Below, in pieces: positions 27,054-43,015 of a stretch of DNA of 64,000 nucleotides. Origin of the DNA: Bizionia sp. (GTDB taxonomy: Bacteria > Bacteroidota > Bacteroidia > Flavobacteriales > Flavobacteriaceae). The DNA lies in the NCBI GenBank assembly GCA_020631395.1, contig JAHDHI010000004.1, forward strand, positions 1-64,000, in the 5' to 3' direction. Within the stretch, counting starts at the first letter, position 1, and each line of letters begins with the position of its first letter. The notes below the pieces were generated by a model. That model did no database searches, was not told where the DNA came from, and worked only from the letters and a program-made list of their open reading frames with translations. Position numbers and translations under genes: made by a program.

Positions 27054-29810
27054 ATGGATAAATATTCCTTTTTAAACGCAGCACATACAGCATACTTTGC
27101 TGAATTATACGAACAATATCTTGAAAACCCAGATTCCGTAGAACCAAGTTGGAGAGCCTTTTTTCAAGGTTATGACTTTGGAAGTGAAAATTATGGAATG
27201 GAGGGAGAAATAGTTGAAGGCGTATCAACTCAGATTCCAGAACATGTTCAAAAAGAATTTCAAGTGGTGAAATTGATAGATGGTTATAGAAACAGAGGCC
27301 ATTTGTTCACCAAGACCAACCCGGTTAGAGCGCGAAGAAAATATGCGCCTACCTTGGAGATCGAAAATTTCGGCCTTTCCGCATCAGATTTGAACACGAC
27401 CTTCAATGCTGGGGAGATTTTGGGTGTGGGACCACAGACACTACAACAGATAATAGACCATCTGGAAACCATATATTGCGACTCCATAGGTGTCGAGTAC
27501 ATGTACATTCGTAAGCCAGAGGAGATAAAATGGATTCAAAACAAGCTGAACATCAATGACAATCAGCCCAAGTTTTCTGAAGACAGAAAAAAATACATTC
27601 TAAAAAAACTCAACGAAGCCGTCTCTTTCGAAAGTTTTCTACATACCAAATACGTAGGACAAAAGCGTTTTTCCTTGGAAGGAGGGGAGTCTTTGATTCC
27701 TGCCTTGGATGCAATCATAGAGAGAGCAGCAGATCTTGGAGTCAAGGAATTTGTAATGGGAATGGCACATCGTGGTCGTTTGAGTACATTGAAAAACATC
27801 TTTGGGAAATCCGCAAAGGACATCTTTAGTGAGTTCGATGGCAAGGATTATGAGGAAAAGGTATTCGACGGAGACGTAAAATACCATTTGGGCTTAACGA
27901 GCAATCGTAAAACGGATTCAGGAAAGAAGATACATTTGAGCATCGCACCCAATCCATCCCACCTGGAGACGGTAGGCGCAGTGGTAGAAGGTATCGCGAG
28001 AGCAAAGCAAGACAAGTATCATAAAGAGGACTTTAGCAAGGTGTTACCAATAGTAGTACATGGCGATGCAGCCATTGCTGGACAAGGATTGGTATACGAA
28101 TTGGTGCAAATGGCACAGTTGGATGGTTACAAGACCAATGGTACCATACATATCGTAGTGAACAACCAAATAGGATTCACAACCAATTATTTGGATGCGC
28201 GTTCCAGTACCTATTGCACGGATGTAGGGAAAGTGACGTTGTCTCCCGTATTGCACGTAAATGCTGACGATGTGGAAGCCGTGGTACATGCCATGCTGTT
28301 TGCCTTGGATTTCAGGATGGAATTTAAAAGAGATGTCTTCATAGACTTGTTGGGGTATAGGAAATATGGGCACAACGAAGGTGACGAGCCACGTTTTACA
28401 CAACCAAAGTTGTACAAGGCCATCTCTAAGCACTCCAACCCAAGAGACATCTATGCAGAAAGATTGATGGCTCAAGGCGTCATAACGAAAGATCACGTCA
28501 AGCAATTGGAAAAGGAGTACAAGGATTCGTTGGAGGAAAAACTAATAGACTCCCGTAAAGAAGACACGACGGTGATTACACCATTCATGCAAGATGAATG
28601 GACGGATTTTTCAAGAGTGGATGAGACAGAGATGATGAAACCTGTCGATACGACAACGACAAGGGAAAAGCTTGAAGAAATAACAAAGGTAATTTCCAAC
28701 TTGCCAGAAGATAAGAAGTTCATTCGCAAGATAGAACGTTTGATACAGTCTAGGCAAAAAATGTTCGATGAGGACAAGTTGGATTGGGCCATGGCCGAGC
28801 ATTTGGCTTATGGAACCCTCTTGGAAGAAGGTTACAATGTCAGGATTTCCGGACAAGATGTAGAGCGTGGAACATTTTCACACAGACATGCAGTCGTAAA
28901 GGTTGAAGATAGTGAAGAAGAAGTAGTATTGCTAAATAACATCAGTGAGAAACAAGGCGATTTCCACATATACAATTCATTGTTATCTGAATACGGTGTC
29001 GTAGGTTTCGATTATGGTTACGCAATGGCCAGTCCAAAAACATTGACCATCTGGGAAGCACAGTTTGGGGACTTTAGCAATGGAGCTCAAATTATGTTGG
29101 ATCAATACATCTCTGCAGGAGAAGACAAGTGGAAGACTCAAAACGGATTGGTAATGTTATTGCCACATGGTTATGAAAATCAAGGAGCGGAACACTCTTC
29201 AGCAAGAATGGAGCGTTACTTGCAACTATGTGCGAAGGACAATATGTACATTGCAGATTGTACCACACCAGAAAATATGTTCCATTTGTTGCGTAGGCAA
29301 ATGAAGGCAGGATTCAGAAAGCCATTGATAGTATTTACGCCAAAAAGTCTATTGCGTCACCCTAAAGCTGTTTCTTCAGTAGATTCTTTTGTGAATGGAA
29401 GCTTCCAAACTGTAATAGGAGATGATGTAGTGGAGACTAGTAAAGTGAAGACATTGGTGTTTGTAACAGGAAAGTTCTATTATGATTTGGATGAAGAGAG
29501 AGAAAAACTGGAAAGAGAAGATGTTGCCATTGTCAGGATAGAGCAGTTGTTCCCATTGCCAACTAAGGAAATGCGTAATGTGTTGAAAGAATACAAAGAC
29601 GCAAAAGATGTCGTTTGGGCTCAAGAAGAGCCAAGAAACATGGGAGCCTATGGCCACATGCTAATGCATTTTGATGAAGCTAAAACCTTTAGAGTAGCAT
29701 CTAGAAGGCCTTATGGAGCTCCTTCGGCAGGAAGCTCAACGCGTTCAAAGAAACGCCATCAGGAAGTTATAGATTACGTATTCGACAAGTCAAAAAACAA
29801 TCAGCGTTAA
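27054..29810 (+). CDS. sucA: 2-oxoglutarate dehydrogenase E1 component
   Basis: A 918-residue thiamine-diphosphate enzyme that decarboxylates 2-oxoglutarate in the TCA cycle and passes the succinyl group to E2. The N-terminal OGDH signature (YFAELYEQYLENPDSVEPSWRAFFQGY) is followed by the core with MGMAHRGRLSTLKNI, the ThDP-binding HGDAAIAGQGLVYE, and the transketolase-like half with AQFGDFSNGAQIMLDQYI. Length is normal. E2 (odhB) follows after one small gene; E3 is not in the window. Confidence 0.97.
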   Translation: MDKYSFLNAAHTAYFAELYEQYLENPDSVEPSWRAFFQGYDFGSENYGMEGEIVEGVSTQIPEHVQKEFQVVKLIDGYRNRGHLFTKTNPVRARRKYAPTLEIENFGLSASDLNTTFNAGEILGVGPQTLQQIIDHLETIYCDSIGVEYMYIRKPEEIKWIQNKLNINDNQPKFSEDRKKYILKKLNEAVSFESFLHTKYVGQKRFSLEGGESLIPALDAIIERAADLGVKEFVMGMAHRGRLSTLKNIFGKSAKDIFSEFDGKDYEEKVFDGDVKYHLGLTSNRKTDSGKKIHLSIAPNPSHLETVGAVVEGIARAKQDKYHKEDFSKVLPIVVHGDAAIAGQGLVYELVQMAQLDGYKTNGTIHIVVNNQIGFTTNYLDARSSTYCTDVGKVTLSPVLHVNADDVEAVVHAMLFALDFRMEFKRDVFIDLLGYRKYGHNEGDEPRFTQPKLYKAISKHSNPRDIYAERLMAQGVITKDHVKQLEKEYKDSLEEKLIDSRKEDTTVITPFMQDEWTDFSRVDETEMMKPVDTTTTREKLEEITKVISNLPEDKKFIRKIERLIQSRQKMFDEDKLDWAMAEHLAYGTLLEEGYNVRISGQDVERGTFSHRHAVVKVEDSEEEVVLLNNISEKQGDFHIYNSLLSEYGVVGFDYGYAMASPKTLTIWEAQFGDFSNGAQIMLDQYISAGEDKWKTQNGLVMLLPHGYENQGAEHSSARMERYLQLCAKDNMYIADCTTPENMFHLLRRQMKAGFRKPLIVFTPKSLLRHPKAVSSVDSFVNGSFQTVIGDDVVETSKVKTLVFVTGKFYYDLDEEREKLEREDVAIVRIEQLFPLPTKEMRNVLKEYKDAKDVVWAQEEPRNMGAYGHMLMHFDEAKTFRVASRRPYGAPSAGSSTRSKKRHQEVIDYVFDKSKNNQR

Positions 29811-29854
29811 CACCATTGAAGGATTCAAAACTTCAATCTTAAATACATAGAAAA

Positions 29855-30226
29855 ATGAAAAAAGGACTTTTAATTATCGCACTATTATGCTTCTCATTGG
29901 GATTTTCACAAACCAACAGAGAATCCATTGAAAAAGCAGCCAACAATTTTCAAACGGCATTCAATGCTTCGGACTATGATGCCATTTTCGATATGTTTGA
30001 CAGTAAGATGAAGGCAGAATTCCCATTGGAAAGAACCAAACTCTTTTTCAAAAGAATAAAAGAGTCCCGTGGAGAGATCAAATCTATGGAATATTACAAA
30101 CTTAGAGAGAAAGCTTTAGTCTATAAGACGACCTTTGAAAAGGATGTCATGGACGTTCGTTTGAGTTTGAATGAAAAAAATGGAAAACTAAGTGGCTTGT
30201 ATGTAGTCGCCATAGCAAAGAAATAA
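29855..30226 (+). CDS. Small secreted protein between sucA and odhB (DUF3887-like)
   Basis: A 123-residue protein with a signal peptide (MKKGLLIIALLCFSLGFSQ). The core AANNFQTAFNASDYDAIFDMFDSKMKAEFPLERTKLFFKRIKESRGEI looks like the NTF2-like/DUF3887 pattern. It lies 44 bp after sucA and 68 bp before odhB on the same strand. An exported protein inside a TCA-cycle operon is unexpected; it may simply share the transcript. Confidence 0.75.
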   Translation: MKKGLLIIALLCFSLGFSQTNRESIEKAANNFQTAFNASDYDAIFDMFDSKMKAEFPLERTKLFFKRIKESRGEIKSMEYYKLREKALVYKTTFEKDVMDVRLSLNEKNGKLSGLYVVAIAKK

Positions 30227-30294
30227 AGCAATATTAAAAACAAATTAGTCTAAAAAATACAGCAGACTTAAAAAACACATAAAATTATAGTACA

Positions 30295-31506
30295 ATGATT
30301 TTAGAAATGAAAGTGCCTTCTCCAGGAGAGTCGATTACAGAAGTTGAAATAGCAGAATGGTTAGTTCAAGATGGCGATTATGTCGAAAAGGACCAAGCCA
30401 TTGCCGAGGTGGATAGTGACAAGGCAACATTGGAACTTCCTGCGGAAGCAAGCGGAACCATTACTCTTAAAGCAGAAGAAGGCGATGCCGTCGCTGTAGG
30501 ACAAGTGGTTTGTTTAATAGATACGAGTGCAGCAAAGCCAGAAGGTGATGAGCCAGCCAAAACCGAAGAAAAAGTAGAGGCGCCTAAAGTCGAATCTTCT
30601 AAGCCAGCAGCTACGGAAGCAAAAACCTATGCAACAGGTACTGCAAGCCCAGCAGCCAAAAAGATATTGGCAGAAAAAGGAATGGATGCCAGTACTATTT
30701 CCGGAACAGGAAAAGATGGACGTATTACCAAAGAAGATGCTGTTAAGGCTGTGCCTTCCATGGGAACTCCAACAGGAGGAAACCGAGGTACTTCAAGAAG
30801 TAAGATGTCTATGTTGCGTCGCAAAGTGGCAGAACGTTTGGTGGAAGCCAAGAATACGACAGCAATGCTTACTACTTTTAACGAGGTGGACATGTCCCCT
30901 ATCTTTGCATTGCGCAAGGAATACAAGGAAACGTTCAAGGCCAAGCATGGTGTAGGATTGGGATTCATGTCTTTTTTCACATTGGCAGTGGTCAGAGCTT
31001 TGAAGATGTATCCTGCAGTGAATTCAATGATCGATGGCAAAGAAATGCTGTCTTATGATTTTGTTGATGTCAGCATCGCCGTTTCTGGACCAAAGGGATT
31101 AATGGTTCCAGTAATTAGAAATGCTGAGAACTTGTCTTTTAGAGGTGTTGAAGCTGAGGTGAAACGTTTGGCGCTTCGTGCCCGCGATGGAAAGATCACT
31201 GTGGACGAGATGACAGGAGGAACCTTTACCATCTCCAATGGAGGGGTATTTGGAAGCATGCTTTCCACACCAATCATAAACCCACCTCAAAGTGGGATTT
31301 TGGGAATGCACAACATTGTTGAACGACCTGTAGCCATAGATGGGCAAGTGGTGATTCGTCCAATCATGTACGTCGCCTTGTCTTATGATCATAGAATTAT
31401 AGATGGAAAGGAGAGTGTAGGATTCTTGGTTGCAGTTAAAGAAGCCTTGGAAAACCCAACGGAATTATTGATGGACAATGACATCAAGAAAGCTTTGGAA
31501 TTGTAA
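30295..31506 (+). CDS. odhB: 2-oxoglutarate dehydrogenase E2 (dihydrolipoamide succinyltransferase)
   Basis: A 403-residue protein. The lipoyl domain (1-75) carries the lipoylated lysine K43 in [10 protein letters not shown] linker and a peripheral subunit-binding domain ([33 protein letters not shown], about 118-150) precede the catalytic domain ending in [16 protein letters not shown] with the active-site His. It transfers succinyl from E1 to CoA. One lipoyl domain is normal for this E2. Confidence 0.96.
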
Positions 31507-33205: not shown

Positions 33206-33316
33206 TTAGCTGATTAAAAAGAAACCTGCAACGATGTTTATGGATATGACAATGATGGCAATAATAATGATTCCTATGATCAGGTTCCTGTTGTTCTCTC
33301 CTCTTATCTTTTCCAT
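33206..33316 (-). CDS. 36-residue hydrophobic membrane peptide, copy 1
   Basis: The frame starts MEKIRGENNRNL and continues with about 20 hydrophobic residues (IIGIIIIAIIVISINIVAGF) to FLIS-stop. One membrane helix follows a charged N-terminus. It pairs with a second copy at 33515-33625. Of 16 codons that differ between them, 11 are synonymous and the other five are conservative or mild (R/K twice, I/M, I/V, I/T), which indicates selection on the peptide. Size and hydrophobicity resemble type I toxins or stress peptides, but no function is known. Confidence 0.7.
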   Translation of the reverse strand: MEKIRGENNRNLIIGIIIIAIIVISINIVAGFFLIS

Positions 33317-33514: not shown

Positions 33515-33625
33515 TTAGCTGGTTAAAAAGAAACCTGCAACGATGTTTATGGATATGACTATGACAGCGATAATCATAATCCCTATGATCAAATTCTTAT
33601 TGTTTTCCCCTTTTATTTTTTCCAT
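33515..33625 (-). CDS. 36-residue hydrophobic membrane peptide, copy 2
   Basis: MEKIKGENNKNL is followed by one long hydrophobic helix (IIGIMIIAVIVISINIVAGF) and FLTS-stop. It is a paralogue of the peptide at 33206-33316, 300 bp away. Upstream on the same strand are a stable hairpin (33665-33694) and the operator/promoter unit at 33733-33782, so this peptide is the likely product of that promoter. Like copy 1, it has no Shine-Dalgarno sequence. Confidence 0.72.
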   Translation of the reverse strand: MEKIKGENNKNLIIGIMIIAVIVISINIVAGFFLTS

Positions 33626-33664
33626 GACTGATAGCACTTTAAAATAGATTTTATTTAAATTGAA

Positions 33665-33694
33665 GACTCTGCACCATAGCTATGATGCAGAGTC
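33665..33694 (-). promoter_or_regulatory. Leader hairpin upstream of peptide copy 2
   Basis: GACTCTGCA-N12-TGCAGAGTC forms a 9-bp stem that extends inward. It has no clear T run on the minus strand, so it is more likely a leader structure or attenuator than a full terminator. Confidence 0.5.
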
Positions 33695-33732
33695 ATCTGA
33701 TAATTCCCCTAAAGAATTAATTAATAGCAATG

Positions 33733-33782
33733 TAAAGGTAAAATGAATATGCGAGTTATGAAATACGTAGTTCTACGTATTT
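33733..33782 (-). promoter_or_regulatory. Regulatory unit 1: palindrome plus -7 box upstream of the peptide gene
   Basis: Palindrome AAATACGTAG-tt-CTACGTATTT is at 33761-33782. After 20 bp the minus strand reads TACCTTTA (33740-33733), a near match to TAnnTTTG. The expected start is near 33727, giving a leader of about 100 nt before the peptide ATG. No -33 TTG is evident, consistent with activator dependence. Confidence 0.65.
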
Positions 33783-33959
33783 TTTTGGACTACATTTTTA
33801 GATTGATTTTCTTTGTAAAGCATTGAAAACATTGAGGTTTTATTGTTTTGTTGATTGTAGGGCATAGAATGGGGTGGTTTTTGAAAACACCCGTGAAACG
33901 TCTACAATGGCTATGTTCGGTATTGGCTTTTCCTTGTGTGAGACCTATGCAATGGTCAT

Positions 33960-34028
33960 AAAAAAAGCTTCAAAACAGTATTACAAGTTTTGAAGCTTTA
34001 GTAATTCTCCCTAAAGAATCGATTTATA
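33960..34028 (-). ncRNA. Candidate small RNA of unit 2, about 70 nt
   Basis: From the predicted start (about 34028) the minus strand carries a small stem-loop (ATTCT-TTAGGG-AGAAT), then a terminator AAAGCTTCAAAAC/GTTTTGAAGCTTT with a T run. No open frame fits. Confidence 0.55.
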
Positions 34029-34033
34029 GCACT

Positions 34034-34084
34034 GTAAAGATAAAATGAATATTTGAATTGTGAAATACGTAGAACTACGTATTT
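34034..34084 (-). promoter_or_regulatory. Regulatory unit 2: palindrome plus -7 box
   Basis: Palindrome AAATACGTAG-aa-CTACGTATTT at 34063-34084; minus-strand TATCTTTA at 34041-34034, 21 bp away. Confidence 0.65.
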
Positions 34085-34365
34085 TTTATGAATCATTTTT
34101 GGATTGTAACACGTTTGATAATCAGTAAATTGAAGAGTTGGATCAAGTGATAGGGTAGTAAAAGACAATGTGCAGCCATTACATTTTAATTTCTAGCCTT
34201 ATTATATGACACATAATTATCTTCTTGAGTACAGTAGAAAGGAGTCCTGTTTAATGATAATGTAAAAAAAGAAGTTTCGTACTTCAGCTTATCTAGAGGG
34301 CGAAAGACTCTATAAGACATTAAATTATGCATTGTTTACTTTTTCATGTCCAAGCCTCAAGGCAT

Positions 34366-34441
34366 AAAAAAAAGCTCCAAGAAACAACAATGTCGTTTTT
34401 TGAAGCCTTTAAAATAATTCTCCCTAAGAATTAATTGATAG
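34366..34441 (-). ncRNA. Candidate small RNA of unit 3, about 75 nt
   Basis: The minus strand from about 34441 has stem-loop AATTCT-TAGGG-AGAATT, then an imperfect G-U containing terminator (AAAGGCTTCAAAAAAC pairs with GTTTCTTGGAGCTTT) and a T run. It is nearly identical to units 4 and 5. Confidence 0.55.
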
Positions 34442-34446
34442 TGATG

Positions 34447-34496
34447 TAAAGATAAAAGGAATAGTCGAGTTGTGAAATACGTAGAACTACGTATTT
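34447..34496 (-). promoter_or_regulatory. Regulatory unit 3: palindrome plus -7 box
   Basis: Palindrome AAATACGTAG-aa-CTACGTATTT at 34475-34496; minus-strand TATCTTTA at 34454-34447, 20 bp away. Confidence 0.65.
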
Positions 34497-34649
34497 TTTT
34501 AGAGGCTTTTTTCACTGTGAAAGTCCCAAAAACATTGAGCTGTATGATGATTTGTTGCAAATTGCATTCGTTTTCAGCAAACTGTACAAAGTGAAAAAAA
34601 AACCAAGAAGTCTTCCTTGTTTGATGCTTTGGCTGTCGGTAAAAGAGTT

Positions 34650-35245
34650 TCATTTTTTAATGAACTTTATGGCACCATGGTTGTTCATCTTCAAGAAATA
34701 CGTTTCATCTGTAAGTTTCCGGACATCTATTTTTCCGTCTACCGAAACGACACCGTCAAAGACCTCAGCCCCCAAAACATCGTATACGACAAATTTTTCT
34801 CCTTTGATCAAACCAGAAACCTGAATGAAGTCGTTAGTCGGGTTTGGATAAAATTTAATGGAATGATTCATGGCAAAGTCGTCATCTATTGAAAGAGTGG
34901 AAATGGGATGCTTGACAATTGCACCATCGAAAAAGTCTATTCTTATAGAAATATATATGTCATTTCCAACAATGATGATGTCTGAAAGGGTATTTTCCCC
35001 ATTGTCGACTGTTAACACATCTACTATTGCTGGCGTAGACTCTGTGACATCCACCTTGGAAAGTGTAGCGTTATTTTGAGTAAAGTACAAATCATTTCCA
35101 TGGAATCTCAAATTAAAAGTCGATCCCAATCCATTTACCACGTCTGTTATTGTTGGTGTAGTCTCGGTAATGTCAATCTTGGAGATTTTACCGACCCCAT
35201 ATTTTATTTGGGTAAAATACAAATCGTTTCCCTGTTTGTCGACAG
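34650..35245 (-). pseudogene. 5'-truncated copy of a type IX-secreted repeat protein
   Basis: This frame (190 residues from its first ATG) is closely similar to the C-terminal half of the protein at 37106-38185, sharing GVGKISKIDITETTPTI and the whole sorting domain (HSIKFYPNPTNDFIQVSGLI and onward). Homology continues a few codons upstream of the ATG to about 35245 (GNDLYFTQ) and then breaks off at a stop. Signal peptide and first propeller repeats are missing, so it cannot be exported as such. Confidence 0.75.
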
Positions 35246-35565
35246 TGGTTATGCTGTTGATTATTTAGTCGCTCGTCAAAGCGATTGTTTTTTACAAGTA
35301 ATAGTTTAGAAGGGGTCGGGCAAACACGTGCTTTAATTTTAGGGACATCCAATGAATGTTTATTGTGACAAGGTGCTTTAAGTCTTTATTATTTTCTTTT
35401 CTATGTTTTTGAAGCGAACAAAAACTATTTTAATTTCAATGATTTGTTTAAAGGACAACATACAGGTTATATACCCTACTTTTTTTACGAAGAATATTTC
35501 GCATTTGTTTGGTTTAGAGCGATATGGAGTCTTTATATGGATTAATGAAGTCTTCCATTCCTACA

Positions 35566-35642
35566 TAAAAAAAGCCCCAAGAAACGACTATGTCGTTTTT
35601 TGAAGCCTTTAAAATAATTCTCCCTCAAGAATCAATTGATAT
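35566..35642 (-). ncRNA. Candidate small RNA of unit 4, about 75 nt
   Basis: Same organisation as unit 3: stem-loop ATTCT-TGAGGG-AGAAT and terminator with arms around AAAAAACGACATAGTCGTTT, ending in a T run. The loop sequence differs slightly. Confidence 0.55.
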
Positions 35643-35647
35643 CAATG

Positions 35648-35697
35648 TAAAGGTAAAATGAATAATCGAGCTGTGAAATACGTAGAACTACGTATTT
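35648..35697 (-). promoter_or_regulatory. Regulatory unit 4: palindrome plus -7 box
   Basis: Palindrome AAATACGTAG-aa-CTACGTATTT at 35676-35697; minus-strand TACCTTTA at 35655-35648, 20 bp away. Confidence 0.65.
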
Positions 35698-35849
35698 TTT
35701 CATAACCTCTTTTTAGGTTTCAAAGCCTTGCCGTAATTGGAGCTTGTGATGTTTTGTTACAAGTTTCAATCGTTTTTGACAAATATTGCCAAATAAAGAA
35801 AGCAAGGAAGCTTCTCTTCTTGATCAAATGATTTGTTAGTAAAAGAGTT

Positions 35850-36968
35850 TCATTCTTTTATGAACTTTATGGCACCATGGTTGTTCATCTTCAAGAAGTA
35901 CGTTCCATCTGTAAGTTTCCGAAGATCTATTTTTCCGTCTGCCGAAACGACACCGTTAAAGACCTCAGCCCCCAAAACATCGTATACGACAAATTTTTCT
36001 CCTTTGATCAAACCAGAAACCTGAATGAAGTCGTTAGTCGGGTTTGGGTAAAATTTAATGGAATGATTCATGGCAAGGTCGTCATCTATTGAAAGAGTGG
36101 GGAGGTCGAACTTGACAATTTTCTGATTGTCCCAATATTCTAGATCTACATCCATGGAAACATATATGTGATCTCCATCAATTATGACTTGAGAATAATA
36201 GTTGGATTCAATTGTTTCCACAACGCTTACTGTTGGGGTACTTGCGGTAATGTCTATTTTTGAGATTTGATGAAATTGAGATGAATTGTAGTCTCCTTGA
36301 GCAAAATACAAGTCATTTCCCTTGATAACCAATCCGGAAGGAAACAATTCAGTTACTAGGTCTGTAGCTGTGGGTGAGGTTTCTGTAATGTCCATTTTAA
36401 AAATTGTCGTCTCCCCATATATGGCTCCGTCTTCTCTACGATCACCGTATAAGTAGTTTCCATCGATAACAATGTCAGAAAAAAAAGCGCTTCCAGTAGC
36501 TGTCAACACTTCTATTGCCGTTGGTGTGGTTTCGGTAATGTCTATCTTGGAAATGCTACTTCCATCATTTAGATTCTGAACAAAGTACAAGTCATTCCCA
36601 TCAATAGCCAAACCTTTGGGTTCACTCAATCCAGTAATTACATCTGTTGCTGTTGGCGTAATTGCCGTCAAGTCAATCTTGGAGATTTTATTTCCGCTAT
36701 ATTCAGCAATGTATAGTATGTTTCCATCAAGAGCCAAACCACTAGGTTCAGTCAACCCAGTAACTACATCTGTTGTCGTTGTTGGCGTAGTTGCCGTAAT
36801 GTCGATTTTGGAGATTTTATTTGCGCCAGATTCGGCAATGTATAGAATGTTTCCATCTAGAGCCATTGCCCTTGGAAAGTACAATCCAGTTACGACATCT
36901 GTTGTTTGTGCACCAAGTTGAATACAACTTAGAAATAGAATGGAGGTAAAAAAGAAAATTTGTTTCAT
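35850..36968 (-). CDS. Type IX-secreted beta-propeller-like repeat protein
   Basis: A 372-residue protein with signal MKQIFFFTSILFLSCIQLGAQ (start at 36968 rather than the upstream in-frame ATG). About six repeats of a 40-residue unit follow (LDGNILYIAESGANKISKIDITATTPT), like YVTN/LVIVD-type propeller blades. The C-terminus is a type A T9SS sorting domain (SIKFYPNPTNDFIQVSGL then TDGTYFLKM). It should be secreted or surface-bound. It is paralogous to the next gene upstream. Confidence 0.82.
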   Translation of the reverse strand: MKQIFFFTSILFLSCIQLGAQTTDVVTGLYFPRAMALDGNILYIAESGANKISKIDITATTPTTTTDVVTGLTEPSGLALDGNILYIAEYSGNKISKIDLTAITPTATDVITGLSEPKGLAIDGNDLYFVQNLNDGSSISKIDITETTPTAIEVLTATGSAFFSDIVIDGNYLYGDRREDGAIYGETTIFKMDITETSPTATDLVTELFPSGLVIKGNDLYFAQGDYNSSQFHQISKIDITASTPTVSVVETIESNYYSQVIIDGDHIYVSMDVDLEYWDNQKIVKFDLPTLSIDDDLAMNHSIKFYPNPTNDFIQVSGLIKGEKFVVYDVLGAEVFNGVVSADGKIDLRKLTDGTYFLKMNNHGAIKFIKE

Positions 36969-37105
36969 GATATAATGGATTAATTGTTTTAAAATAATTG
37001 CCAAATAGCGATGATTTATTTTATAAATAATAGTTTAGGAAGGACATACAATGACAAGGATGTTCTGGATCCAGTGAGTGGACGTTGTTGTATGCGGTCT
37101 TGTCT

Positions 37106-38185
37106 TTATTTTTTCATGAACTTTATGACAGTGTGGTTGTTCATCTTCAAGAAGTACATTCCATCTGTAAGTTTCCGAACATCTATTTTTCCGCCTACCG
37201 AAACGACGCCGTCAAAGACCTCGGTTCCCAAAACATCGTATATGACATAGTTTTCTCTTTTGATCAAACCAGAAACCTGAATGAAGTCGTTAGTCGGGTT
37301 TGGATGAAATTTAATGGAATGATTCATGGCAAGGTCGTTTTCTGTTGAAAGGGAGGGAATAGGGTATTTGACTATTGTTCCTCCTGCAAAACCTTGTGAC
37401 ATGGAGATGTATATCTCGTTTCCAACAATGATGATGTCTGAAAGGGAATTGCCCCCATTGTCGACTGTTACCACATCTACTATTGCTGGCGTGGACTCTG
37501 TGACATCCACTTTGGAAAGCGTAGCGTTATTTTGAGTAAAGTACAAATCATTTCCATGGAATCTCAAATTAAAAGCCCACCCCAATCCATTTACCACGTC
37601 TATTATTGTTGGCGTAGTCTCGGTAATGTCAATCTTGGAGATTTTACCGACCCCATTTTCTATTTGGGTAAAATACAAATCGTTTCCATTGAGAGCCATC
37701 CCATTGCAAGCGGAGAGCCCAGTTATTACATCTGTTGCTGTTGTTGGAGTTGGTGCGGTAATGTCAATCTTGGAGATTTTACCTTGATCGAATCCCATCA
37801 TATACAGGTCATTTCCAACAATGAGTACTTCAGTAGGATTACCGATGCCAGTGAATACATCTGTAGCTGTTGGCGTAGGAGAGGTAATGTCGATCTTGGA
37901 AATTTTATTTCCAGAAGATTCAGCAATGTACAAGTCATTTCCATGGAGTGCCAACGACATGGGAGATTCCTGTAAAATAATTACATCTGTAGCTGTTGTC
38001 GGTGTAGGTGAAGTAATGTCAATCTTGGAAATTTTGGCTCCAACGAGTTCGGCGATGTACAAGTCGTTTCCATTTAGAGCCATTCCTCTGGGGTGAATTA
38101 GCCCTGTTACGACATCTGTTGTTTGTGCGCCAAGTTGAATACAACCTAAAAATAAAATGGTGATAAAAAAGAAATTTTGTTTCAT
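37106..38185 (-). CDS. Type IX-secreted beta-propeller-like repeat protein, paralogue
   Basis: A 359-residue protein with signal MKQNFFFITILFLGCIQLGAQ (start at 38185), blade repeats (LNGNDLYIAELVGAKISKIDITSPTPT) and a T9SS sorting domain. The neighbouring gene and the fragment at 34650 are recent duplicates. Domains between the repeats and the sorting signal differ, so the copies may bind different targets. It lies downstream of regulatory unit 5 on the same strand, with about 410 bp between that terminator and the start codon. Confidence 0.82.
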   Translation of the reverse strand: MKQNFFFITILFLGCIQLGAQTTDVVTGLIHPRGMALNGNDLYIAELVGAKISKIDITSPTPTTATDVIILQESPMSLALHGNDLYIAESSGNKISKIDITSPTPTATDVFTGIGNPTEVLIVGNDLYMMGFDQGKISKIDITAPTPTTATDVITGLSACNGMALNGNDLYFTQIENGVGKISKIDITETTPTIIDVVNGLGWAFNLRFHGNDLYFTQNNATLSKVDVTESTPAIVDVVTVDNGGNSLSDIIIVGNEIYISMSQGFAGGTIVKYPIPSLSTENDLAMNHSIKFHPNPTNDFIQVSGLIKRENYVIYDVLGTEVFDGVVSVGGKIDVRKLTDGMYFLKMNNHTVIKFMKK

Positions 38186-38595
38186 GGTATGCATATTAAT
38201 TGTTAAATAAATTGTCGAGCAATTGTTTTAAAATTGCCAGATAGTAATGATTTATTTTATAAGTAATAGTTTAGGAAGGGCATTCAATGACAAGGGGTTC
38301 TAGTTCCAGCGAGTGGACGTTGTTATATGCTGTCTTGTCTTTTCTTTTTCTAACGCTTTTGGTGGTTTCATTTTTATAATTCGTATAAGAAACAGTTTGT
38401 AGGTTGGAAACCCTACTTTTTAGAAATACGATTTTGATGTTTGTTATTTTGTTGACTGTCAGGGTTTTTGATTTCAGGATTGTACGGGGTGCGAACTTGT
38501 CTCTTGTAGAATGAATTGAAAAAGGGTAAAAGTAATTGGGATGAAGTTTCTATGAAGTCCTGAATTTCACTTCTTCTGTTACTCATATAAAAGAT

Positions 38596-38671
38596 GAAAA
38601 AAAGCTCCAAGAAACAACTATGTCGTTTTTTGAAGCCTTTAAAATAATTCTCCCTAAGAATCAATTGATAG
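38596..38671 (-). ncRNA. Candidate small RNA of unit 5, about 75 nt
   Basis: Stem-loop ATTCT-TAGGG-AGAAT, then the same G-U containing terminator as units 3 and 4 with a T run. It differs from unit 3 at only a few positions. Confidence 0.55.
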
Positions 38672-38676
38672 CAATG

Positions 38677-38726
38677 TAAAGGTAAAATGAATAATCGAGT
38701 TGTGAAATACGTAGAACTACGTATTT
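38677..38726 (-). promoter_or_regulatory. Regulatory unit 5: palindrome plus -7 box
   Basis: Palindrome AAATACGTAG-aa-CTACGTATTT at 38705-38726; minus-strand TACCTTTA at 38684-38677, 20 bp away. The palindrome centre is about 45 bp upstream of the expected start. Confidence 0.65.
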
Positions 38727-38972
38727 TTTTAAACGAACTTTTTGGTGTCAGAGCCCTATATTTATTGGTGTTCGTTAACTACAGTTGGTAAGACAACGTA
38801 TGGAAATGGGGTGTTTGACAATCTCTCATCATGGAAAACCTATGGATGTAGAAATTATATGTTGATTCCTAATGACGATGATGTCGGAGGGGAAAGAAGT
38901 TTCACTGTTTATCGTCATCAAACCTGTTATCATTGGCGATAACGTTTCTCTTTAAGGTTTTGTCATAACAAT

Positions 38973-39044
38973 GAAAAAGCTTCAAAACAATAACGAAGTT
39001 TTGAAGCTTTTAGTGATTTTTCTTGTAATTTATTGATGTATTAG
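38973..39044 (-). ncRNA. Candidate small RNA of unit 6, about 70 nt
   Basis: Terminator AAAAGCTTCAAAAC-aataacgaa-GTTTTGAAGCTTTT has the same arms as unit 2. The 5' stem-loop is not conserved here, so this copy may differ in function. Confidence 0.5.
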
Positions 39045-39049
39045 CACTG

Positions 39050-39099
39050 TAAAGATATAATGAATAATCGAGTTGTGAAATACGTAGAACTACGTATTT
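39050..39099 (-). promoter_or_regulatory. Regulatory unit 6: palindrome plus -7 box
   Basis: Palindrome AAATACGTAG-aa-CTACGTATTT at 39078-39099; minus-strand TATCTTTA at 39057-39050, 20 bp away. Confidence 0.65.
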
Positions 39100-39128
39100 T
39101 TTGCAGATTTTTTTGGGGATAAATAATA

Positions 39129-39199
39129 AAAAAAAGCCCAAAAGCAGAATTGTTTTTGGGCTCTTGATAATTCTTTTCACGGAATTAATCGATTAATAG
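39129..39199 (-). ncRNA. Candidate small RNA of unit 7, about 70 nt
   Basis: An AATTC/GAATT stem-loop is followed by terminator AGCCCAAAA-N10-TTTTGGGCT with a T run. The terminator sequence is unique but the layout matches the other units. It could alternatively terminate the response-regulator transcript. Confidence 0.45.
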
Positions 39200-39204
39200 C
39201 CTTA

Positions 39205-39253
39205 CAAATATAAGGTTAAAATTCTATCTATAAGCACGTATAACTACGCGTTT
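39205..39253 (-). promoter_or_regulatory. Regulatory unit 7: degenerate palindrome plus perfect -7 box
   Basis: The degenerate copy AAGCACGTAT-aa-CTACGCGTTT (39232-39253) overlaps the last codons of the response-regulator gene. The minus strand then has TATATTTG (39212-39205), a perfect -7 box, 19 bp away. A better -7 box paired with a weaker operator suggests less dependence on the activator. Confidence 0.5.
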
Positions 39254-39885
39254 TTCAAAAGTTTCTTGTTTGTATTGGCCCAGATGGTCAGTGCGTTATG
39301 TGATTTTTCTAGTTTCAATTTTTTTATGATGTTGCTCCTGTGCTTCTCCACCGTTCTTACCGAACTATCCAAGTCCTCAGCTATTTGTAGGCTCGTCTTG
39401 TTCTCGGAGAGGGATTGGACAACCTTCATCTCGGTCTTGGTTAAAAGCTCCATTATCTTGGTGTTGGTGTATTTTATCTTGGAGTTGAGATAAGACGCTA
39501 TTTCCTCGCTAAAATAGGGCTCTCCACGTTTTACGTGTTCAATGCAATTTTCAATCTCTTCGACGGCAAATTCCTTCAAGATGTACCCGTAGACACCATA
39601 GGCTATGGCTTTGTCATAAAGTTTTTCTTCATTGTCGAAGGTTATTAGGATTATTTTGGTGTCCAACTCGTTCTTTTTGCACTCTGCTGCAATCTCGAGT
39701 CCCGTGAGAAAAGGCATTTGTATGTCTAATACGGCAATGTCCGGATTTAATTTCACGATGAGGTTGTAGGCAGTCTTGCCATCTTCGGCACTACCTATTA
39801 TATTGTAACCCTTGGAAGAGATGTAACCGCTCAAGCCCCTAAGCATGAGTGGGTGGTCGTCAGCAATAACAATGGAAATGCTCAT
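39244..39885 (-). CDS. LuxR/NarL-family response regulator
   Basis: A 213-residue regulator. The receiver domain (1-120) has acidic residues D9/D10, phospho-acceptor D54 in AVLDIQMP and a lysine in GYILKEF. The C-terminal NarL/LuxR helix-turn-helix (about 140-200: LTKTEMKVVQSLSENKTSLQIAEDLDSSVRTVEKHRSNIIKKL) binds DNA as a dimer. No histidine kinase lies nearby. It is downstream of the retropepsin/CHAT genes (60-bp gap) and directly next to the palindrome array, whose two-fold symmetry and -45 position suit a regulator of this class. Confidence 0.9.
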   Translation of the reverse strand: MSISIVIADDHPLMLRGLSGYISSKGYNIIGSAEDGKTAYNLIVKLNPDIAVLDIQMPFLTGLEIAAECKKNELDTKIILITFDNEEKLYDKAIAYGVYGYILKEFAVEEIENCIEHVKRGEPYFSEEIASYLNSKIKYTNTKIMELLTKTEMKVVQSLSENKTSLQIAEDLDSSVRTVEKHRSNIIKKLKLEKSHNALTIWANTNKKLLKNA

Positions 39886-39945: not shown

Positions 39946-40392
39946 TTAATGGGGACTTAAATATAGATATTTCTTTTCATAATCTATAATACCTTTTCCC
40001 TTTTTTAAGATATCTGCTCCGATGATGCCATTCACCGCTTGTGCATTATGGGTGGTAAGTGCCGTGTTTATATGGGTGAGGTCAAATAGTATGAGATTCT
40101 TGTTCTCCATTTTCCATCTCCCGATCTTTACGGTGTTCTTTTTGGATATCTGAGTTGTCATGTCCGTGGTACCGGCACCTGCTGCCTTAATGTTGGAATC
40201 CTTAACCTTAAGGTTGAAGAAGTCTATGCTTTTAAAGCCGACACAGCTACTGGATGCCCCGGTATCAAGAATAAACAAGCCTTTCACACCGTTTATTGAG
40301 GCCTTTACTTCGAAATGATTTGTTTTTGTGAGTTTTAACTTGATTTTCTTGTAACCTTTACTCAGTAAGAATTCTTGAAGTACGTTTTCCAT
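39946..40392 (-). CDS. Retropepsin-like aspartyl protease, cytosolic
   Basis: A 148-residue single-domain clan AA protease. The catalytic motif is LFILDTGASSSCVG (D43-T-G) and the second signature is NGIIGADIL near residue 117. Such enzymes work as homodimers. There is no signal peptide or membrane segment, so it should act in the cytosol. Its ATG lies 35 bp inside the end of the TPR-CHAT gene, so translation is coupled and the two proteases are probably made together. Confidence 0.85.
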   Translation of the reverse strand: MENVLQEFLLSKGYKKIKLKLTKTNHFEVKASINGVKGLFILDTGASSSCVGFKSIDFFNLKVKDSNIKAAGAGTTDMTTQISKKNTVKIGRWKMENKNLILFDLTHINTALTTHNAQAVNGIIGADILKKGKGIIDYEKKYLYLSPH

Positions 40393-42961
40393 TTTGCTTT
40401 TTTAAAACCAAAAGTAAAAGTACTGCAATTAATAGTGAGATTGCAAAAATAGATGGGTAAATGTAGTTGTTTTGACTTGGCTTGGTCAAGTCTCCATAAA
40501 ATACGAAGGTGCTCCAGTAATAGGGAGATTTCTTTATGTTCTCGATGTCTTCATCTTGTAGGTAGTCCAATTTGGATTGGCAATTGGCCCAAAATACAGA
40601 CTCGCTTTCATCATGGTTTTTGTAAAAGTATGCCATGATTCGAGAGGTGGACAAATCATTGATCTTCCATAGGGAAAACAACATATTCTTTGCACCGGCA
40701 TATTGAAACCCTCGAGCCAAACTCATTGCGCCTTCTCCTTGCTCCAATCGCCCGACACCAGTTTCACAAGCACTCAATACCACCAAATCCACATTCAGGT
40801 TCAAGACATACAATTCATGCAAGGACAAGCTGGCATTTGCAAACTCTATGCTTGCCGGTTCTGCGAAATTGCCTGCATTGGCGTGTGTGGATAGATGTAG
40901 AATGTCATATTCGTTTGCCAATTCGATAAAGCGCTCCTTAGTGGCCAAATTATTCATCAAAAGCGTGGATTCAACCTCTTTTTCAATGCTTTTTGCCTCA
41001 TTGATGGAGTAGGTGAGTTCCTTGTTTGAGTTTTCGAAAACAGGAAAAATGCCCAATAGCCTTTGCTGGGACAATGGTTTGTTTTGCTTTAGGTATAAAG
41101 AAGCACTGGAGTTGTAAGCCAACTTGTGACTTTTTACGACAAAAGGCATGGTCTCGAAATTCAAACTTTTGGTTTTGGAGGTAAGCAAGGCATCAAAGGG
41201 GATGAAATTGATGAAACTGTCAGGAATGACGATAATGTTTGTCTTGTCTTTCACTTTGTCTAAATGTAGCGTCTCATACAAGGAGAAGGCATCGGAAGCA
41301 TACTTGATGATGTCGTTGTTTATTGCAGAGGCGTTGTCGAAATACCTTATGAACTCCAGAATGTCATTCTTCGTGGTTTCATCCAATGCTATGGCATTCA
41401 ACTCGGCAGCCTTTCCCGAAATGATGAACTGGTAGATGGCATCGCTGCCATAAAAGTATTCCACCAAGGTAGCATCATCCTCAATGAGTTTCTTTTTCAT
41501 GTCGATAAATGAAATGTCACTGTCTTGAGCTACATCGTGTTTTTCTGCTATGCTGTTTTTCGTTTCTTTCAATTCAATGCTAACACTGTTCAAAGCTTCT
41601 CTTATGGTGTTTGTCTCTCCTTTTCCTACAGGGGCGTATGGTGTCCTTACCAGTTGGTTGGTAAGCTGTATTTGTTTGTTCAATAAAAATTGTTCCTTGA
41701 TGAGCAAGGAATCTTCGGGATGGGATTCCAGAAGCGATTTCTTGTCTACCATCTCCTTTAGGACGGCAGATTTGAATCTTTCGGCATGGACGAAAGCTTG
41801 CTCGATGTAAATGGCGTTGTCACTAGTTTTACTCAATCGATGCAACAAGGAAATGGATTTCTCGCTTCGCCTCCTATTCTTGGAAAGCTGAATCAACTTT
41901 CCCTCCTGTGATGTTATGTCTCTATCCAGTAGAGAAGAAACGTGAAAACTCAATTCATAGCACTCCAATGCATTTTTTGGATCGACTTGCAAATTGGCCA
42001 AGGCGTCGAAAAGGTCAATGAAGGTATTCTCTGGGTAAAGATCGTTCTTAGTTGGCAGACCGTTGCCTTGAAAATTAGGCAATAGGGTGCGAAGAGCCAA
42101 CTTCAGTTTTTTTGCAGAAGTGTTCTTGTCGTTTAAAAGTAGATGCAAATGAGCCTCTTCGATGTTTAGTTTTGCCAAGTCTCTGGCAGAAGTCATTTTG
42201 TCGTATCCAAAAGATTTCAAGTTCTTGAACAATTTCAAAGCCTTCTTGTAATCCCCAATTTCATATGCCAATTCATATTCCATTTGAGTTTTAACGTTTA
42301 AATCCATCAAGTGGGGCAATTTCACATCCACATTGTCTATGTACACAATGGTCTTGCCCAAAAGAATGGAACTTCGGGATTTTATGGATTCGAGCTTGTT
42401 TCTTTTGCGAGATGGCAATTGGGGTATTTTCAATCCTTGGGATGCTACATCCATGGCCAATTGGTGCTTGCCTAACTTTTGGTAGAGGTTGCTTAGGTTT
42501 ATGGCACCAGAGATGCGATGGGCATCGTTTTGTTGCTTCTCTGCGAGGAAGATGTAATGTTTTATGATGTTTTCTGCATTGGTATAGTTATTTGTCTTGT
42601 GATAAAGAATGCCCAACGGAATCAAACAATATTCTATGATGTCGAACTGAAATACCGTTGCAATCTTTTCCTTCTTATATCTTGTCCAAGCTTCTTCGTA
42701 CGTTGCGATTGCTTTTTGCTGGCTATTGCTCCTATCCAAATAATAGGCCTTGTTCAAGAGTAGATTTATAAATGCGAAGTGTTCGTCCTTGGTGTGTAGT
42801 TTGGTTTTGAAATCTGATATTTCCAGATTAAGGGTGCTCAAAGCGTCATTGGTCTTGACCTTGTTGAAGATTTCTGTAGCCTCATATATTTCATTTTCCA
42901 AATCTTGGGAAAGAGCGTTTCCACTGCATAAGAGGATTAATATAAAAAGGAGTCTGTTCAT
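40358..42961 (-). CDS. TPR-CHAT (caspase-like) peptidase, membrane-anchored
   Basis: An 867-residue protein (start at 42961, giving signal MNRLLFILILLCSGNALSQ). Residues 20-400 are tetratricopeptide-like helices, residues about 480-810 a CHAT peptidase domain, followed by one membrane helix (IYPSIFAISLLIAVLLLLVL) and a short basic tail. The caspase-type dyad is visible as His693 in LHLSTHANAG and Cys732 in LVVLSACETGVG. The signal peptide plus C-terminal anchor place the protease on the outer face of the inner membrane. CHAT proteases with TPRs cleave dedicated partners; the partner here is unknown, with the neighbouring membrane TPR/anti-sigma-like protein a candidate. Confidence 0.9.
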   Translation of the reverse strand: MNRLLFILILLCSGNALSQDLENEIYEATEIFNKVKTNDALSTLNLEISDFKTKLHTKDEHFAFINLLLNKAYYLDRSNSQQKAIATYEEAWTRYKKEKIATVFQFDIIEYCLIPLGILYHKTNNYTNAENIIKHYIFLAEKQQNDAHRISGAINLSNLYQKLGKHQLAMDVASQGLKIPQLPSRKRNKLESIKSRSSILLGKTIVYIDNVDVKLPHLMDLNVKTQMEYELAYEIGDYKKALKLFKNLKSFGYDKMTSARDLAKLNIEEAHLHLLLNDKNTSAKKLKLALRTLLPNFQGNGLPTKNDLYPENTFIDLFDALANLQVDPKNALECYELSFHVSSLLDRDITSQEGKLIQLSKNRRRSEKSISLLHRLSKTSDNAIYIEQAFVHAERFKSAVLKEMVDKKSLLESHPEDSLLIKEQFLLNKQIQLTNQLVRTPYAPVGKGETNTIREALNSVSIELKETKNSIAEKHDVAQDSDISFIDMKKKLIEDDATLVEYFYGSDAIYQFIISGKAAELNAIALDETTKNDILEFIRYFDNASAINNDIIKYASDAFSLYETLHLDKVKDKTNIIVIPDSFINFIPFDALLTSKTKSLNFETMPFVVKSHKLAYNSSASLYLKQNKPLSQQRLLGIFPVFENSNKELTYSINEAKSIEKEVESTLLMNNLATKERFIELANEYDILHLSTHANAGNFAEPASIEFANASLSLHELYVLNLNVDLVVLSACETGVGRLEQGEGAMSLARGFQYAGAKNMLFSLWKINDLSTSRIMAYFYKNHDESESVFWANCQSKLDYLQDEDIENIKKSPYYWSTFVFYGDLTKPSQNNYIYPSIFAISLLIAVLLLLVLKKQNGKRTSRILTE

Positions 42962-43015
42962 GGTGACTATGGCAATTTTAGGTTTCAATTTGGGAAACGT
43001 TACAAAAAAGGAACT

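Follow-up and report, generated by a model that had tools for sequence, protein, structure and literature searches.

A tandem array of predicted small RNA genes beside a NarL/LuxR-type response regulator gene in Flavobacteriaceae

Introduction

What do seven copies of one operator-and-promoter unit, lined up on a single strand, produce, and which protein acts on them? Here, we address this question for a stretch of 64,000 nucleotides from Bizionia sp. (assembly GCA_020631395.1, contig JAHDHI010000004.1, positions 1 to 64,000; hereafter the window), beginning with the architecture of the units and their predicted RNAs, examining their conservation and gene neighbourhood, and weighing alternative explanations before a comparison with described systems. 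As a whole, the locus is best explained as tandem sRNA genes under the control of the neighbouring response regulator (RR), a reading to which we assign a probability of about 0.68. That the units make up an sRNA array is its firmest part and, judged from sequence, very likely.

Architecture of the array

A 22-bp palindrome, AAATACGTAGnnCTACGTATTT, is found in six exact copies in the window and in none of 100 dinucleotide shuffles of it, and a seventh, degenerate copy, AAACGCGTAGTTATACGTGCTT, overlaps the final codons of the RR gene. A TAnnTTTA box lies on the minus strand exactly 20 bp from the operator in all six exact units, and the box of unit 7 lies 19 bp from its degenerate operator. The original prediction had described seven such units with a fixed box distance and without a TTG box at −33, and the window bears this out on each point, with distances of 19–20 bp throughout and no −33 TTG box. 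In 16 of 20 distant orthologous loci, scored by eye, the palindrome ends in TATTG, which places a TTG at about −33 there. The operators and boxes are as follows.

39232..39253, minus strand: unit 7 operator, degenerate palindrome
39205..39212, minus strand: unit 7 box (−7 type), TATATTTG
39078..39099, minus strand: unit 6 operator, exact palindrome
39050..39057, minus strand: unit 6 box, TATCTTTA
38705..38726, minus strand: unit 5 operator, exact palindrome
38677..38684, minus strand: unit 5 box, TACCTTTA
35676..35697, minus strand: unit 4 operator, exact palindrome
35648..35655, minus strand: unit 4 box, TACCTTTA
34475..34496, minus strand: unit 3 operator, exact palindrome
34447..34454, minus strand: unit 3 box, TATCTTTA
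34063..34084, minus strand: unit 2 operator, exact palindrome
34035..34042, minus strand: unit 2 box, TATCTTTA
33761..33782, minus strand: unit 1 operator, exact palindrome
33733..33740, minus strand: unit 1 box, TACCTTTA

The same geometry recurs outside the array. The rest of the genome holds 17 further palindromes with at most three mismatches, and of the 34 flanks of these, 11 have TAnnTTTG at offset 20, as against three occurrences at all other offsets from 0 to 59 together, suggesting that the operator–box arrangement is a promoter type used genome-wide.

Predicted RNAs

Beyond the boxes, six units are predicted to yield two-hairpin RNAs of about 71–77 nt, with starts guessed from the box position, in keeping with the terminated RNAs of about 70 nt proposed earlier for six units.

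39128..39200, minus strand: unit 7 predicted sRNA, about 73 nt (fold and T run; R1 E=1.9e-6)
38974..39045, minus strand: unit 6 predicted sRNA, about 72 nt, hairpin 1 not formed (fold; R1 E=1.5e-4)
38597..38672, minus strand: unit 5 predicted sRNA, about 76 nt (fold; R1 E=2.4e-7)
35567..35643, minus strand: unit 4 predicted sRNA, about 77 nt (fold; R1 E=6.9e-6)
34366..34442, minus strand: unit 3 predicted sRNA, about 77 nt (fold; R1 E=4.5e-7)
33960..34030, minus strand: unit 2 predicted sRNA, about 71 nt (fold; R1 E=3.7e-8)
33626..33728, minus strand: unit 1 leader before a micropeptide gene, with the common 5' core and a strong hairpin without a T run (fold)

The RNA 5' end is conserved as UGCUAUUAAU; a small hairpin with GG in its loop usually comes next, and the RNA has an intrinsic terminator that covaries, with double compensatory changes in 11 of 12 predicted pairs across 51 hand-picked sequences, six of them from the window (alignment A2). 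GCTATTAAT was not found, by eye, in the other operator promoters of the genome that were printed out, and would thus be part of the RNA and not of the promoter. For hairpin 1, 98% of cells are paired against 36–70% in slid versions of the alignment (8 distinct in-register sequences). A stem of at least five pairs forms in 146 of 177 distinct 5' regions and none such in the remaining 31; GG falls within the loop in 91 of the 146. The comparisons establish the predicted unit as operator, 20 bp, TAnnTTTA, and an RNA with a conserved 5' end and a terminator, and by sequence the array holds several paralogous, terminated sRNA genes.

The RNA model R1 was built with six of the seven window units, unit 1 being left out, and has seven matches at E<1e-3 in the genome, all in the array, including the unit 1 leader (33658–33729, E=1.4e-5); at this threshold the hairpin RNA is confined to the array in its own genome. 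Rfam covariance models gave no sRNA match at the gathering cut-off in the window or in eight relatives, and permissive matches (3 in the window, 39 at the related locus L033) were all below their own cut-offs and had no family in common. Flavo-1 (RF01705), earlier named as a possible relative, matched at neither the gathering nor the permissive threshold, leaving the link unsupported.

The micropeptide at the end of the array

Unit 1 had been predicted to lead into a small peptide gene. A gene of 36 codons does follow, yet as one of two in tandem.

33515..33625, minus strand: micropeptide 1, 36 aa, with one hydrophobic stretch (translation)
33206..33316, minus strand: micropeptide 2, second copy, 36 aa (translation)

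In relatives, too, the array's last unit usually reads into a conserved micropeptide that has a single hydrophobic stretch. A similar micropeptide was found at E<1e-3 at 75 of 80 relative loci, using a model built from ten seed peptides, of which the window supplied one and the same loci the others; L043 (E 0.76) and L097 (E 9.4) were left out of this count. With a pN/pS of 0.22 in relatives, the micropeptide is under purifying selection. Its leader and the other units have a common 5' core (unit 1 in the window, and the relatives listed). The T run is weaker in last units, with a mean of 4.17 (63 units with a hairpin) against 5.51 in the 120 others, 15 units per class being without a hairpin.

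Gene neighbourhood and conservation among relatives

The array starts at the 3' end of an RR gene, upstream of which stand two further genes.

39244..39885, minus strand: NarL/LuxR-type RR gene, Response_reg and GerE domains (PF00072, PF00196)
39946..40392, minus strand: retropepsin-like aspartyl protease gene, upstream of the RR gene (PF13650)
40358..42988, minus strand: CHAT-domain protein gene, accessory (PF12770)

To examine how far this arrangement is retained, the closest 80 of 244 RR relatives were kept. Scanning with a relaxed operator plus box detected units downstream of the RR gene, within 4.5 kb, at 79 of these 80 loci; at L031, no units were seen at the scan thresholds and two by motif. 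The array is thus syntenic with one RR gene, and its presence in relatives, which the original prediction had called for, is confirmed. There are 1–8 units per locus and at least two at 75 of 80 loci; two rows were removed before the count of 213 units was made (a second start 10 bp away at L027 and a weak third unit at L046). Among 200 operators with at most two mismatches, the box is at an offset of exactly 20 bp in 189 and at any other offset on the box side in 8 in total, and 49 boxes are scattered across many offsets on the opposite side, with at most 7 at one. More broadly, R1 matches occur in 81 of 249 Flavobacteriaceae genomes. A further 20 loci were chosen from RR matches of 48–59% identity; 18 came from genomes already R1-positive, so that this selection itself leads one to expect units there, and the script recognised units in 3 of the 20, the remainder being recognised by motif.

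The neighbouring genes are retained to differing degrees, with tblastn matches to the aspartyl protease gene at 80/80 loci and to the CHAT-domain gene at 40/80, and neighbour genes at 27054–31506 also found at 64/80 and 66/80. In a PADLOC search, the aspartyl protease matches the candidate model PDC-M08B (E 3.2e-9) and two genes on the regulon side hit the AbiU and type I restriction models, with no match for the CHAT and PKD proteins.

Adjacency and fixed geometry link the RR to the operator, and the NarL/LuxR-type RR is the probable activator of the array. The fixed spacing behind the earlier assignment of an activator site stands; the choice of activation over repression comes from position only, and a repressor, too, could act from an operator at −33.

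A predicted target in the regulator mRNA

In most relatives examined, the sRNAs have a candidate target close at hand. At 55 of 79 loci, the stretch immediately preceding the RR start codon shows complementarity (p<=0.05) to the 5' end and first loop of the sRNA, whereas the micropeptide start region, taken as a comparison, reaches this level in 7 of 74 (median p 0.53). The putative pairing segments are a, AUUAAUAGCA, and b, CUCCCU. TAATAGC is present in 43/80 RR leaders against 2/175 controls, CCCT or a CU-rich motif in 62/80 against 9/175, and both together in 34/80 against 0/175. For hairpin 1, the cognate sRNA beats non-cognate ones against the RR leader in 60 of 81 comparisons, and there are genus-specific matches, for example 13 bp in L031 and CTCCCAAAA/TTTTGGGAG in L033 and L034. 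RNAduplex ranking, a weaker signal than the ungapped score, places 28 of 80 in the best 5%, with a median of 8%.

These counts are not independent because the 80 loci are related, and the idea of the RR as target was drawn from the same 80 loci first used to score it. In the 20 further loci, outside the idea-forming set, CCCT or a CU-rich motif is found in 14 and TAATAGC in 5, and p is <=0.05 in 9 and >0.05 in 11 (combined p 2e-7). Across the main set, the order of the two paired segments would not allow collinear pairing by a single sRNA; the collinear order is found in L161, L171, L172 and L173. The RR leader of the window's own species has no significant pairing (p=0.40), nor do those of 24 of the 79 relatives, including L020, whose RR is 97% identical.

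Regulon leaders with a CUUCCCUA loop were also tried as sRNA targets and rejected, with pairing at chance (p 0.54–0.87, four/six leaders). Beyond the array copies, extended hairpin 1 complements had only sites with 1–2 mismatches in the own and two same-genus genomes, in numbers near the backward control. The adjacent RR as probable regulator, the like promoters across the genome and the complementarity to the RR mRNA in relatives were all absent from the original prediction.

Proposed mechanism

We propose that the RR, once phosphorylated by some kinase, would bind the palindrome centred near −44 and activate all units together, giving rise to redundant sRNAs and the micropeptide. In the majority of the relatives studied, the RR mRNA would then be bound just ahead of its start codon by the 5' end and hairpin-1 loop of the sRNAs, and its translation blocked, forming a negative-feedback loop that limits the response. 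The complementarity makes such feedback somewhat probable as a property of the family; for the window's species it is doubtful.

Alternative explanations

Other readings of the array deserve consideration. The units might be leaders of the attenuator type, or what is left of a leader duplication, with the micropeptide mRNA as the sole functional product and the upstream copies either non-functional or acting as decoys for some factor that recognises the micropeptide leader, as could be suggested by a last unit that is paralogous to the others, shares their 5' core and has the weaker T run. However, in different genera the upstream copies retain their core and terminators, with compensatory substitutions; decay would hardly leave this, nor at least two units at 75 of 80 loci, and we consider this explanation improbable, although a decoy role for a protein is conceivable. 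The GG loops and the RR, which is of the NarL type and also matches a UvrY/SirA/GacA model below that model's cut-off, recall CsrB/RsmZ-like decoys, in which GGG(A) hairpin loops sequester a translational regulator under a GacA-like RR. Against this, each RNA has a single GG loop and not many, and CsrA (PF02599, positive in 3 of 14 control genomes) has no match in the genome (assembly about 96% complete), leaving such decoys quite unlikely.

Slightly less probable still is a type I toxin–antitoxin system with the micropeptide as membrane toxin and the sRNAs as antisense antitoxin. A peptide of about 30–36 aa, with a single hydrophobic stretch and encoded beside sRNA genes, would suit it, but the sRNAs run in the sense direction of the peptide leader and are its paralogues, their complementarity to the start region of the peptide is close to the chance level, and one operator type would drive both sRNAs and peptide. 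Finally, near-identical tandem unit copies at L033, a unit-like match on another contig of a same-genus genome (G001:C11) and R1 matches away from the RR in some family genomes (for example, G101) could point to a family of repeats, dispersed or mobile, that plays no part in regulation. This reading fares worst of all, as the units lie downstream of the RR at 79/80 loci, with the neighbour genes at 27054–31506 also retained at 64/80 and 66/80, and 7/7 matches at E<1e-3 in the own genome are inside the array; their confinement to one place and synteny with the RR uphold the earlier view that the array is not a mobile repeat.

Relation to described systems

GacA, a NarL-type RR, activates RsmY/RsmZ via an upstream palindrome, and these RNAs carry GG in hairpin loops. 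The array has a NarL-type RR, which would likewise act through an upstream palindrome, and GG in hairpin loops, and differs from this system in the missing CsrA match, the one such loop per RNA and the operator close to the promoter. Qrr genes, in turn, lie scattered and require sigma-54 and Hfq. Unlike them, the array is tandem and RR-adjacent, with a NarL-type RR, a TAnnTTTA box and a micropeptide. According to PMC3262071, Qrr1–5 of Vibrio repress production of the response regulator LuxO in a negative feedback, a likeness in that several redundant sRNAs are tied to one RR, RR feedback being inferred here from relatives' sequences. Membership of the Qrr family was rejected, with no Rfam covariance-model match in the window or eight relatives.

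The FopS sRNAs of Bacteroides thetaiotaomicron, as described in PMC11697453, comprise 14 paralogues of about 65 and 70 nt, each with a single-stranded 5' stretch holding the seed and then a terminator, and bind near start codons; they are encoded at separate loci with canonical promoters, bind RbpB and repress susC homologues (PMC11697453). The host phylum, Bacteroidota, and the paralogous sRNAs of similar length are common to both, whereas the array's units are tandem, operator-linked and usually have one extra hairpin. FopS membership was likewise rejected, with no RRM_1 (RbpB-type) match in the genome and no such Rfam match. Rfp18 of Flavobacterium psychrophilum is a conserved flavobacterial sRNA, widely conserved in the genus, whose third stem-loop is predicted to pair with protease mRNAs (PMC9723704). 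The main text of that paper contains neither 'LuxR' nor 'palindrom', and no tandem sRNA array was seen in the sections consulted; Rfp18 is set apart from the array sRNAs by this description, not by sequence comparison. In the available parts of PMC2864571 and PMC13370916, no resemblance to the array is apparent. Among the open-access papers listed in literature searches, none concerned a comparable operator-linked sRNA array, in line with the earlier remark that no described system of this layout was known to its author.

Implications for Flavobacteriaceae

Tentatively, and at less than even odds, the locus may be a self-contained, undescribed signalling module of Flavobacteriaceae that joins an aspartyl protease, a NarL-type RR and 1–8 tandem sRNA genes to a membrane micropeptide. 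Its sRNAs would pair with the RR leader by two segments whose order is clade-dependent and whose complementarity is kept. If so, the module would serve a regulon as its hard-wired RNA thermostat, and in the window's species that regulon would include LodA-like oxidases and YD-repeat-like secreted proteins. Few regulatory RNAs are described for Flavobacteriaceae in the literature found, and the genome analysed here has neither a CsrA nor an RRM match. The array brings together in one place an sRNA family, its probable regulator, its promoter type and a linked micropeptide, to which a predicted target is added in the majority of the relatives studied, and would thus make sRNA action in this family directly testable.

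A response regulator-linked array of predicted RNAs

From sequence comparison, we conclude that the feature is a response regulator (RR)-linked array of redundant predicted small RNAs (sRNAs) with a linked putative membrane micropeptide. In the window, the following elements make up the locus:

39946-40392: small gene for a retropepsin-like aspartyl protease, adjoining the RR gene
39244-39885, minus strand: NarL/LuxR-type RR gene, upstream of the array
33761-39253, minus strand: 22-bp palindromes of units 1-7, six exact and one degenerate (unit 7, next to the RR gene)
34650-38194: genes of the propeller-like type, two intact and one 5'-truncated, that encode a Por secretion tail and are interspersed with units 3-5
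33515-33625 and 33206-33316 (second copy): two tandem genes for 36-aa peptides, after unit 1

The exact 22-bp palindrome occurred in 0 of 100 shuffles of the window. A TAnnTTTA/G box, which we take to be the -7-type box of Bacteroidota promoters, follows each exact palindrome at 20 bp and the degenerate one at 19 bp. After the box comes a predicted RNA, 71-77 nt long in six units, with a small hairpin (hairpin 1) in most units plus a terminator; judged by conservation and distance, it would start near UGCUAUUAAU. Hairpin 1 is not folded in unit 6, and unit 1 carries a strong hairpin without a T run, followed by the two peptide genes. The genome of the window is Flavobacteriaceae-like, and its RR is 97% identical to that of an 'uncultured Bizionia sp.'. 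As the protein encoded at 37106-38194 had no tblastn match in 80 relative loci, the propeller-gene insertion looks lineage-specific.

Conservation among relatives

An RR-based scan of genome contigs found 244 relatives, the closest 80 of which were kept. The 4.5 kb downstream of the RR gene contain at least one unit in 79 of these 80 loci (two units in 48 of the 79, with a maximum of eight in L020), and the remaining locus, L031, has two units found by motif. Among 200 operators with up to two mismatches from the relatives' loci, 189 have the box at offset 20, versus eight boxes spread over the remaining offsets between 0 and 59; the flank on the other side has 49 boxes, with at most seven at any one offset.

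In the terminator stem, 11 of the 12 predicted pairs are maintained through double compensatory changes (51 sequences). RNAalifold recovered no consensus helix for hairpin 1 from the gapped alignment of 51 sequences; in an ungapped subset of eight distinct sequences, 98% of cells pair, compared with 36-70% in slid versions. Of 177 distinct 5' regions, 146 form a stem with five or more pairs. A covariance model of the unit RNAs matches, at E<1e-3, only the seven units in the window's own genome, six of which were themselves in the model, and gives 17 matches there at E<=1. Across the family, it matches 81 of 249 genomes, in some cases away from the RR gene (e.g. G101), and RR matches at E<=1e-60 occur in 136 of 397 genomes; a phylum-wide draw yielded matches in 5 of 247 genomes, four of these inside the family.

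Operator type and genes elsewhere behind it

The palindrome centre lies about 44 bp upstream of the assumed RNA start, a position bound by LuxR/NarL-type class II activators. In 16 of 20 more distant RR loci (L157-L176) the last letters of the palindrome are TATTG and overlap position -33, so the operator may instead serve a repressor. The -7 box of these loci has diverged at its first letters (e.g. GACCTTTA), and together with the TATTG end this hints at a shift of promoter type. In one of them, L162, the 65 nt preceding the core show no palindrome.

The window's own genome contains 17 further palindromes; 11 of their 34 flanks carry TAnnTTTG at offset 20, compared with three such boxes at all other offsets. 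Since the other operator promoters listed for this genome are missing the GCTATTAAT core, the core belongs to the RNA. The operator-box pattern matches in 15 of 16 genomes searched (backward control, 0); in the 13 genomes reached via relatives' loci, the matches mostly form clusters, which were taken for the array, while several lie outside the cluster in G000 and G001, and fewer in G002.

Downstream of other operators are genes for two LodA-like oxidases, a 2OG-Fe(II) oxygenase and an APH-like kinase, along with further proteins that we read as YD-repeat-like and secreted; the one YD-repeat-like protein scanned (L016) had no Pfam match. The own-genome set L006-L019 and L124, which shares the operator-20 bp-TAnnTTTG promoter and includes the LodA-like oxidases, the YD-repeat-like proteins, the 2OG-Fe(II) oxygenase and a PAD_porph protein behind a degenerate operator, possibly forms a competition or secretion regulon. 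Another such promoter precedes a 195-aa ORF without a family and then an AbiU-like protein (PADLOC E 5e-28; L009:14498-16000). Six other own-genome leaders (L120, L121, L122, L123, L124 and L126), each after an operator or degenerate operator, have in common a two-hairpin element, AACCATAAAA..TTTTATGGTTTTCAGTAAACGT..ACGTTTGCT; pairing with the array sRNAs was at chance in the four tested.

Micropeptide and neighbouring genes

A micropeptide model, seeded with ten peptides drawn from the window and from these loci, and with start codons set by our own rule, matches after the array at E<1e-3 in 75 of 80 loci, the peptides being about 28-36 aa with one hydrophobic stretch. The match is weak in L043 (E 0.76) and not credible in L097, and none was found in L033 (contig end), L065 or L093. 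Among the more distant loci, 16 of 20 match at E below 1e-3; several have two matches. A pN/pS of 0.22 over 86 pairs speaks for a real protein; five micropeptides had no Pfam match above cut-off, nor three an NCBIfam match. By tblastn, the aspartyl protease gene is matched in 80/80 loci and a CHAT gene in 40/80 (short and weak in L023), which marks the latter as accessory. The protease also matches the PADLOC candidate defence model PDC-M08B (E 3.2e-9).

Probable target and known systems

In many loci, the RR leader contains the reverse complement of the invariant sRNA 5' end, about 28 nt ahead of the start codon. Tested on the same loci where this was noticed, which are related and not independent, TAATAGC occurs in 43/80 RR leaders versus 2/175 leaders of other genes there, a CCCT or CU-rich motif complementing the loop in 62/80 versus 9/175, and both together in 34/80 versus 0/175. 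Complementarity scored p<=0.05 against own shuffles in 55/79 RR leaders and 7/74 micropeptide start regions, with nothing in the RR leader of the window (p=0.40) or in 24 of the 79 loci. The cognate sRNA outscores non-cognate ones in 60/81 loci; RNAduplex ranking is weaker, placing the RR leader within the best 5% in 28/80. Genus-specific loops are also matched in the leader, over 13 bp in L031, as TTTTGGGAG/CTCCCAAAA in L033 and L034, and as GAGAGATAGAAT with ATTCTATCTC in L069. The 20 further loci carry the CU-type motif in 14 cases and TAATAGC in five, with p<=0.05 in nine, nothing in 11 and a combined p of 2e-7; the two segments come in the opposite order in L161, L171, L172 and L173, but not in L170.

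Tests of the units as CsrA decoys, as a type I toxin-antitoxin system and as a mobile repeat disfavour all three readings. The nearest known systems are Qrr/LuxO, FopS and GacA/Rsm; by the tests made, the array is a member of none. The predicted mode of working of the RR-linked array would be most like Qrr/LuxO, and for most of the relatives examined, repression of the RR itself by the sRNAs is probable.
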